The notes beneath the pieces are model-generated. The model was not told the origin of the DNA. It made no database searches and saw only the letters and a program-made list of their open reading frames with translations. From positions 1-22,765 of IMG/VR virus record IMGVR_UViG_3300021960_000555: a stretch of 22,765 bases of DNA, one strand, 5' to 3'. Made by a program: the position numbers and the translations under genes. Source of the stretch: a virus. Shown here piece by piece: positions 1,628-2,301 of this stretch; position 1 is the first letter of the stretch; the number at the start of each line of letters is the position of its first letter.

Positions 1628-1792
1628 TTACTTTTTATTATAGATTGGTTCTATCGATAAAAGTTGTTCAAAATATTTGTCCAAGTGAATTTTGTAACAG
1701 GACCAGTATGTTACTCCTCTATATTTGAGTTGATAACATGCTGGTGGTCTGTTACTTGCATCCATATCATCAGTGTGATATCGATAATCCAT
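1628..1792 (-). CDS. YRG-motif micro-protein (DUF4278-like), second copy
   Basis: ATG at 1792-1790 to TAA at 1630-1628 encodes 54 residues. It contains KYRGVTYW near residues 23-30, the YRGxxY core of small cyanobacterial and cyanophage proteins of the DUF4278 type, whose function is unknown. The rest is rich in Tyr and Asp and ends in two Lys. The start codon overlaps the stop of the preceding gene by one base (TGATG) and has no good binding site of its own, so translation is probably coupled. Both genes are exactly 54 codons and share the YRG core, suggesting a diverged tandem duplication. The family assignment rests on the short motif only. Confidence 0.6.
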   Translation of the reverse strand: MDYRYHTDDMDASNRPPACYQLKYRGVTYWSCYKIHLDKYFEQLLSIEPIYNKK

Positions 1793-1956
1793 CACTTGTT
1801 ATAAGTGTGACCGCGATAGCAGAAGGTTCCATGGACTTCATCAGCACCTTGCTTGCACTCATACTGGACACCACGATAAGAGGTGTGCATGATTTGTGCA
1901 TCGTGCAGTGCTGCTGCTTTCTGGATCTGCTTCTTGATGAGAGTAAGTGTGTTCAT
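1792..1956 (-). CDS. YRG-motif micro-protein (DUF4278-like), first copy
   Basis: ATG at 1956-1954 to TGA at 1794-1792 encodes 54 residues, with AGGAGA eight bases upstream. It has two YRG elements, SYRGVQYE near residue 26 and CYRGHTYNK at the C-terminus, which is the layout of DUF4278 proteins common in cyanobacteria and their phages. The N-terminal 20 residues form a Lys/Ala-rich helix. The function of the family is not known. It is followed with a one-base overlap by a second YRG protein and then by a terminator, and lies downstream of a likely early/late promoter at 2286-2301. Confidence 0.7.
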   Translation of the reverse strand: MNTLTLIKKQIQKAAALHDAQIMHTSYRGVQYECKQGADEVHGTFCYRGHTYNK

Positions 1957-1998
1957 TGTAGGTCTCCTAAAGAAATGAGGTTTTTAATCCCCGTTCCT

Positions 1999-2193
1999 TC
2001 AGTCGTTTGCGTCCTTGCTATCAAAACAATGGGGGTCTGTATGATTAATCCAATGGATTAAGATATCAGATTTTTCAGCAGGAGTGAAAAGAGTTGTCTC
2101 TTTTAGACCCTGCTTCAACCATTGATAGTCTTCACACCTAAGGAAATCCCCAGGAGGAACATGACTAAAGAAAATCAAAGCTAGTGATAACAT
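1999..2193 (-). CDS. Hypothetical small phage protein (64 aa)
   Basis: ATG at 2193-2191 opens a 64-residue frame starting MLSLALIFFSH and ending DPHCFDSKDAND. The first ten residues are hydrophobic, too short for a full membrane helix, and are followed by a Cys/Trp-containing helical segment (CEDYQWLKQG). GGAG lies about 12 bases upstream, within a small AACG/CGTT hairpin. This is the first gene after the composite promoter and structured leader at 2195-2301. I do not recognise a domain. The start could be a few codons off, but the promoter and the gap upstream support the frame. Confidence 0.6.
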   Translation of the reverse strand: MLSLALIFFSHVPPGDFLRCEDYQWLKQGLKETTLFTPAEKSDILIHWINHTDPHCFDSKDAND

Positions 2194-2194
2194 A

Positions 2195-2284
2195 GGATGA
2201 ACGCTCCGTTCCGCGACTTACTTGCGTCCCACCATCGGAAAGAGAGGGTGGGATGAACGTAGATGGTAACTTTCGATACCATCT
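2195..2284 (-). other. Structured 5' leader with two hairpins and a 9-base direct repeat
   Basis: Between the promoter and the 64-residue gene there are two inverted repeats. One has eight perfect pairs at 2261-2268 and 2277-2284 with an eight-base loop. The other has seven perfect pairs, TCCCACC at 2227-2233 and GGTGGGA at 2247-2253. Neither is followed by a T-run on the minus strand, so they are not simple terminators. GGATGAACG occurs twice, at 2195-2203 and 2251-2259. A further short AACG-GAG-CGTT stem holds the likely ribosome binding site. It may be an mRNA-stabilising or translation-controlling leader, or a small RNA. Confidence 0.5.
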
Positions 2285-2285
2285 A

Positions 2286-2301
2286 TATTTATATTATAGC
2301 A
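2286..2301 (-). promoter_or_regulatory. Composite promoter: extended -10 merged with T4-type late motif
   Basis: Reading the minus strand from 2301, TGCTATAAT (extended -10, 2301-2293) runs directly into TATAAATA (2293-2286), sharing one base. The first fits host sigma70-type recognition without a -35 box; I find no good -35 hexamer. The second is an exact match to the T4 and T4-like cyanophage late promoter. Either would transcribe the small-gene cluster 2193-1628. The promoter lies just after the stop codon of the 2302-2607 gene. Confidence 0.65.

Follow-up and report, generated by a model that had tools for sequence, protein, structure and literature searches.

The stretch of DNA analysed here (hereafter referred to as the window) is a virus record of 22,765 bases from a cyanomyovirus close to cyanophage S-RIM50, which it matches with 95% coverage and 99.2% identity. 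On the minus strand, nrdA, nrdB and a small gene are followed by an intergenic region (2194-2301), a gene of 64 amino acids (64-aa gene) and a gene of 54 amino acids (Table 1). The 54-aa product matches Pfam PF14105 (DUF4278) with 24.1 bits (E 4.7e-5), just under the cut-off of 25.3; all DUF4278 matches obtained with Pfam here fall under the Pfam cut-off. A second, weak DUF4278-like gene lies straight after it (1628-1795, minus strand; sub-threshold score of 17 bits, E 0.0078). By its substitution pattern, the 64-aa reading frame is a real gene, because the differences from 15 relatives of the same length concentrate at codon position 3 (392, against 216 and 119 at positions 1 and 2). Its protein has no Pfam family at E 1 and falls into a PHROG (phrog_13397) annotated as of unknown function. 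The predicted model of the protein consists of two main helices (mean pLDDT 82.1, pTM 0.63), with no PDB match at E 0.001 and a single match, a protein of S-PRM1, in a viral library at the same threshold.

In a sequence-only reading, the intergenic region had been described as a long structured leader of the 64-aa gene, with two strong hairpins, a nine-base direct repeat and a small stem holding the likely ribosome binding site, and an RNA-level control element, a small RNA or an RNA-stability element had been suggested. The structural features are real. The repeat, GGATGAACG at 2195-2203 and 2251-2259 on the plus strand, reads as two copies of CGUUCAUCC on the coding minus strand. On the minus strand, one hairpin is formed by GAUGGUA..UACCAUC enclosing GAAA (2262-2283) and the other by UCCCACC..GGUGGGA (2227-2253), and the small start-codon stem, GAACG-GAG-CGUUC (2199-2211), contains the GGAG that precedes the 64-aa gene. 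The folding energy of 2180-2290 (minus strand) is -33.3 kcal/mol compared with -23.6 +/- 3.6 kcal/mol for dinucleotide shuffles (z -2.69), 3 of 200 of which fold as stably.

Judged by its motifs, the leader looks like the 5' half of an aptamer of the glutamine-I type (glnA, RF01739), the 3' half of which lies about 200 bases further on. The 5' half, of the order CGUUCA-P2-CGC-AAGUA-P3, stands ahead of the 64-aa gene, whose stop codon is overlapped by the 3' half, of the order P3'-GAA-GGAACG-G. The structure does precede the 64-aa gene, as had been claimed, but it is not merely that gene's own leader, because it supplies one half of an aptamer that appears to close around the gene; the other half is found at 1991-2011 and overlaps the stop codon. 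Control at the RNA level is supported by the glutamine-type aptamer half and by compensated pairing in relatives; covariation in related phages had been named as a check, and compensating changes are present across them. A separate small RNA or stability element is superfluous for explaining the data.

Table 1. Predicted aptamer parts, genes and neighbouring features at the locus (positions in the window).
Feature	Positions	Strand	Basis or remark
Promoter-like boxes	2286-2298	-	TATAAT at 2293-2298, preceded by TGC; overlaps TATAAATA (2286-2293)
Extra 5' hairpin, GAAA in loop	2262-2283	-	Between promoter-like boxes and aptamer
First CGUUCA, P1 5' strand (C1 and G2 in glutamine-II numbering)	2254-2259	-	Rfam alignments; available text of PMC6698751
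Helix P2 hairpin (slot A)	2227-2253	-	Insert of about 200 nt instead in 42 of 194 relatives
CGC (putative ligand-site strand) and AAGUA (loop E 5' half)	2219-2226	-	Rfam alignments, relatives
Helix P3 5' strand, AGUCG	2214-2218	-	Compensated pairing with 2001-2005 in relatives
Inner hairpin GAACG-GAG-CGUUC with GGAG	2199-2211	-	Second CGUUCAUCC copy starts at 2203
Gene-closing helix, start side, UCCUAUGU	2190-2197	-	Includes AUG (2191-2193)
64-aa reading frame (phrog_13397) in P3 loop	1999-2193	-	C-terminus ..DSKDAND, then stop
Gene-closing helix, end side, GAUAGCAAGGA	2012-2022	-	Pairing with start side
Inner CGCAAA	2006-2011	-	Near-copy of CGCAAG in the 5' half
P3 3' strand CGACU (2001-2005) and GAA (1998-2000, loop E 3' half)	1998-2005	-	Holds stop codon UGA (1999-2001)
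GGAACGG, P1 3' strand and putative ligand-site residues	1991-1997	-	Pairs with 2255-2259; available text of PMC6698751
54-aa DUF4278-like gene, presumed riboswitch target	1792-1956	-	AGGAG at 1964-1968

Searching viral contigs for the conserved portion yielded at least 120 stretches. Loci chosen by pattern, by name and by protein were pooled (226, one match each), and after the removal of 22 duplicates and of 10 loci cut by a contig end (5 before the first CGUUCA and 5 before the 3' half), 194 distinct complete elements remained. The relatives share a layout of CGUUCA, a slot (slot A) occupied by a hairpin or a longer insert, CGCAAGUAAGUCGCGGAACGGAG, a second CGUUCA, a gene (slot B) and a 3' block, CGCAAACGACU[G/A]AAGGAACG or a close variant, which contains the stop codon of the slot-B gene (here the 64-aa gene). 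The RNA motif was required for entry into the slot-B pool; no locus with enough sequence was dropped for its absence. Relatives of the 64-aa protein occur in 41 phage records, and both halves are present in all 12 named phages chosen by this protein and examined. For the other slot-B family, the best 80 of 524 protein-chosen loci have AAGUA and P3 before the gene in 80 cases and the canonical 3' half in 79; in the odd one (L383), the linker and one P3 base differ, and the latter still pairs by wobble.

Compensation is clearest in helix P3, whose five pairs are all possible in each of the 194 elements across 140-192 nt; the types are AGUCG/CGACU (181), AAUCG/CGAUU (4), AGACU/AGUCU (3) and single-wobble forms (6). 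A scan for changed P3 strands returned five contigs, each with AGACU followed past the gene by AGUCU, a compensation that spans the reading frame. In 51 distinct gene-less aptamers with the core CGUUCA / CGCAAGUA / GAAGGAACG, P3 is an ordinary, freely varying helix of four pairs (47-51 of 51), with a fifth in 13. Where P2 is a short hairpin (152 elements), pairs 1-5 form in 152, 152, 149, 136 and 135 elements, with several compensated types. The P1 strands CGUUC and GAACG are present and invariant, partly since the search patterns fix CGUUCA and GGAACG, and P1 thus has no covariation support of its own. The loop E strand AAGUA, also a requirement of the search pattern, occurs in all elements and in the 80 protein-chosen loci mentioned above; the 3' strand of loop E is GAA in 148 and AAA in 46 of the 194 elements, and the window has AGUA and GAA.

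In Rfam searches, the window scores 23.3 bits with glutamine-II (cut-off 33) and 23.2 bits with glutamine-I, RF01739 (cut-off 35), with no other family matched at E up to 1; such a score below the cut-off is to be expected if a gene interrupts the aptamer. A natural gene-less relative with a 15-nt hairpin in slot B (L098) reaches 46.4 bits with RF01739 (gathering threshold 35, E 3.3e-7), and its match extends from the first CGUUCA through the last GGAACG, the same two halves as in the window. Among eight relatives searched, L098 alone exceeds the RF01739 cut-off; five have sub-threshold matches to the first half and two, both with a long slot-A insert, have no glutamine match at E 1. Glutamine-II (RF01704) gives 24.9-28.9 bits where matched among the eight, under the cut-off of 33 as in the window, and its P2 helix with pseudoknot loop is not found, the alignments showing deletions and non-standard pairs there. 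In the glutamine-II crystal structure, C1, G18, C39 and G40 contact glutamine and G2 takes part in a base triple (available text of PMC6698751). Equivalents of all five are present here, the long-range pair being C:G instead of G:C. From these motifs, we infer that the element in the window belongs to the glutamine riboswitch class, with glutamine binding as a prediction. The outer parts very probably constitute one glutamine-I aptamer, a predicted three-way junction of P1, P2 and P3 with loop E, the P3 loop of which is filled by a whole gene.

The slot-B genes encode 49-66 residues. Among the 191 with a recognised ATG, 182 stop at the same site in the aptamer strand, and the nine others stop earlier, without the terminus encoded there and with the RNA motif kept; the DAND termini are encoded by the same twelve bases, with identical codons, in 130 of 131 cases. 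A second insert is found in the P2 loop in 42 of the 194 elements, 41 of these inserts holding a reading frame of 65-75 codons. In one such element (L131), the slot-A gene starts near the inferred transcript start with no ribosome binding site obvious by eye, and its protein matches PHROG 6471, of unknown function. In a gene-less aptamer (L163:1219-1296, minus strand), the P3 loop keeps a copy of the inner CGUUCA-hairpin-CGCAAA, and the inner module may therefore function independently.

Both slots are closed by helices formed from the ends of their contents. Positions 1-6 of the slot-B closing helix pair in 193, 193, 192, 192, 162 and 100 of 193 elements, with pair 4 being C:G in 138, U:A in 35, U:G in 17, A:U in 2 and a mismatch in 1. 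For 104 distinct slot-B genes, the mean pairing of the ends is 5.49 against 4.79 +/- 0.06 when ends are swapped between loci, a value reached in 0 of 1000 shuffles with kinship ignored. The 42 distinct slot-A inserts have a mean stem of 5.52 compared with 3.89 +/- 0.23 (0 of 2000 shuffles, kinship likewise ignored), and their pair 3 is C:G in 26, U:A in 15 and U:G in 1. Of the 41 slot-A inserts with a stop found, 28 have the end of the stop codon two bases ahead of the aptamer strand, and in these the pair-3 base is the last base of the stop. When co-changes are counted on trees, few are independent and significance is not reached: slot-A pair 3 is concordant in 3.5 of 4 with none opposed (p 0.25), slot-A pair 4 in 3.7 of 4 (p 0.125) and slot-B pair 4 in 1 of 3, with 2 unchanged. 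The inner hairpin is compensated in S-PRM1 (L321), and one more element has a similar sequence.

The gene that follows the element carries the DUF4278-like YRG motif in all 188 assessable elements (6 contigs were too short), and a gene with this motif also follows 52 of 53 assessable gene-less aptamers (7 were too short). Cyanobacterial glutamine riboswitches mainly partner DUF4278 genes and activate expression, and the protein IF17 contains a DUF4278 domain (available text of PMC6316151).

Upstream of the element, no sigma-70 promoter was called in 1900-2700, and a terminator reading of the region was rejected, the three terminator-like calls in that interval all lying on the plus strand. The boxes listed in Table 1 include TATAAATA, which we take to be a 'late-type' promoter-like box. 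Among 182 distinct upstream sequences of relatives, a -10-like hexamer was found in 161, and in 141 of these it ends 7-9 nt 5' of the first CGUUCA; in the window, this distance is 33 nt. Stretches resembling the extra 5' hairpin of the window occur in S-RIM8, S-RIM4, S-B64 and S-H25, and this hairpin could have a role in stability. The -10 box of relatives (for example L005, L020 and L320) often lies within a perfect inverted repeat whose arms vary (GGTC-TATAAT-AGACC and others); a stem of at least 5 at the box was observed in 96 of the 182 upstream sequences versus 4 in shuffled copies.

On unconstrained ligand-free folding, the outer P1 is paired with a mean probability of 0.88 in the window, the corresponding value exceeding 0.5 in 38 of 38 sampled relatives, but the ensemble mean for P3 is only 0.29 here and 0.31 for L098. 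When the interior of the gene is shuffled, P1 changes from 0.84 to 0.80 and exceeds 0.5 in 34 instead of 38 of the 38; P1 thus barely drops, and the fold of the gene is therefore unneeded for closure. Alignment folding of the coding sequence yields 18 pairs in one length class and 11 in another, mostly at the ends, and 30 pairs with a longer start helix in the class of the window (27 sequences). In samples of the nested genes, folding is more stable than in codon-shuffled copies, with a mean z of -2.97 for slot B (n 60) and -3.71 for slot A (n 40); samples of DUF4278-like genes give -2.11 (n 40) and mid-gene stretches of long reading frames -1.24 (n 38). The idea that the coding sequence folds in a conserved way along its entire length was rejected, with the pairs placed mainly at the ends and P1 closure independent of the fold of the gene.

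The start codon is unpaired with a probability of 0.19 in the full element versus 0.49 without the 3' half, and is more open without it in 27 of 35 sampled elements; the arrival of the 3' half therefore tends to bury the AUG. Closure does not conceal the GGAG any further (unpaired 0.65 in the closed form versus 0.56), and control through an inner hairpin hiding it is not supported, on this ground and because S-PRM1 lacks a GGAG. In the mechanism that we propose, glutamine would bind the composite aptamer, and closure of the two halves would bury the start codon of the inner gene. Ribosomes traversing the inner gene would, in turn, hold the aptamer open, such that translation of this gene and glutamine sensing would be mutually exclusive. 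The closed, ligand-bound state would alter the expression of the DUF4278-like gene, presumably upward by analogy with the cyanobacterial glutamine riboswitches. The element may be a translation-gated riboswitch, a model put forward tentatively and with somewhat less than even confidence: its core would assemble only when no ribosome is on the inner gene, so that the RNA would report both glutamine and ribosome traffic, and in the fifth of the elements in which both junction arms bear genes, a three-gene operon would be wired through one aptamer.

The same motifs could be divided differently, into two tandem small glutamine aptamers without P3, one made by pairing of the first CGUUC to the inner GAACG and one by pairing of the second CGUUC to the last GAACG, each of which would bind glutamine. 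Each half does resemble a repeat of CGUUCA-stem-CGCAA..GGAACG. Taken alone, the first half matches one or both glutamine families with 23-29 bits, both here and in several relatives, and the second half reaches 28.1 bits in L098. However, when each fold is forced, the composite is the more stable one in 12 of 13 elements (the exception, L080, by 0.2 kcal/mol), the tandem fold leaves the P3 co-variation across the gene unused, and the Rfam cut-off is passed by the composite only; moreover, S-PRM1 keeps the inner hairpin by compensation and loses one of the five tandem pairs on each side. The tandem division, which we consider very unlikely, was therefore dropped on account of the L098 match, the P3 compensation and S-PRM1.

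A single composite aptamer could, in principle, retain the glutamine-type fold and be re-tuned to another ligand or to none, and would then serve only to clamp the inner gene structurally. In favour of this reading, CGG carries C at its third position here (although GGAACG-G has the G that matches it), loop E is variable and P1 closure is predicted even with no ligand present. Against this stand the equivalents of the reported glutamine contacts C1, G18, C39 and G40, the triple base G2 and the long-range C:G, all of which are present (available text of PMC6698751), and a downstream gene of the type that accompanies glutamine riboswitches; such re-tuning is very unlikely. The nearly invariant blocks, which flank slots with differing genes or a hairpin, might also be regarded as recombination sites in the DNA at which small genes are shuffled as cassettes, with the pairing incidental, and the element indeed adjoins nrdB/talC in some phages and lies at other sites in others. 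Nevertheless, the compensated changes in P2, P3 and the closing helices, the Rfam match and the constant DUF4278-like gene demand an explanation at the RNA level, and purely DNA-based boundaries are very unlikely; shuffling at the conserved blocks may occur in addition to the RNA function of the composite aptamer.

The 73-nt 5' half has partial matches in 423 of 50,697 phage records at E 1e-3, of which 49 match at least 80% of its length; the 5' half alone is no proof of a nested gene. By name, the 423 are Synechococcus (350), Cyanophage (63), Prochlorococcus (8) and Marine (2) records. A scan of cellular genomes (one per prokaryote species, with one pattern) found two contigs, both titled TMED129; these copies of the 5' half (L313, L314), in contigs titled as a Euryarchaeota MAG, are perhaps stray phage DNA. 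Ordinary patterns of the glutamine-I type, some as two adjacent copies, were also observed in viral contigs (L198, L206, L220, L221 and others). The nested arrangement seems, from these sequence comparisons, to recur across marine cyanobacterial viruses as a new variant form of the known glutamine riboswitch.

Riboswitch aptamers are usually viewed as compact leaders ahead of genes, whereas here an aptamer appears to surround a gene, and its 3' strand would be coding sequence, stop codon and putative ligand site at once. If true, this would represent a new coupling of metabolite sensing to translation, would mean that standard covariance-model cut-offs overlook gene-interrupted aptamers, and would link cyanophages, by way of DUF4278-like proteins, to possible control over nitrogen metabolism in the host. 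No description of a gene inside a riboswitch aptamer was recognised in the literature searched, in which the coverage of subscription papers is thin. RNAs of the glnA type are known in marine phages, namely cyanophage S-CREM1 (PMC9964418) and methylophage Melnitz (PMC9004378), and the available text of the two reports makes no mention of a gene within, or splitting, the aptamer. Tandem glnA RNAs have already been published (available text of PMC2864571).

The element shares with glutamine-I (RF01739) the CGUUCA, the P2 hairpin, the AAGUA/GAA strands of loop E, P3, GGAACG and the DUF4278-like gene that follows. It differs in the gene and inner hairpin within the P3 loop, in the additional P2 insert of 42 of the 194 elements, in a long-range pair CGC..G in place of CGG..C and, for 182 of 191 elements, in an aptamer 3' strand that also codes for protein and supplies the stop codon. 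With glutamine-II (Downstream-peptide, RF01704), it has in common the CGUUCA, the CGC strand with a C:G long-range pair, GGAACGG and a small gene downstream, but the P2/pseudoknot loop of that class is replaced by P3 and loop E, and the scores remain below the cut-off. Some introns carry a reading frame in a peripheral loop, and such introns resemble the present elements in having a protein gene in the loop of a structured RNA; here, however, the RNA is a presumed ligand sensor instead of a self-splicing molecule, and the gene, a short one, has no assigned function.
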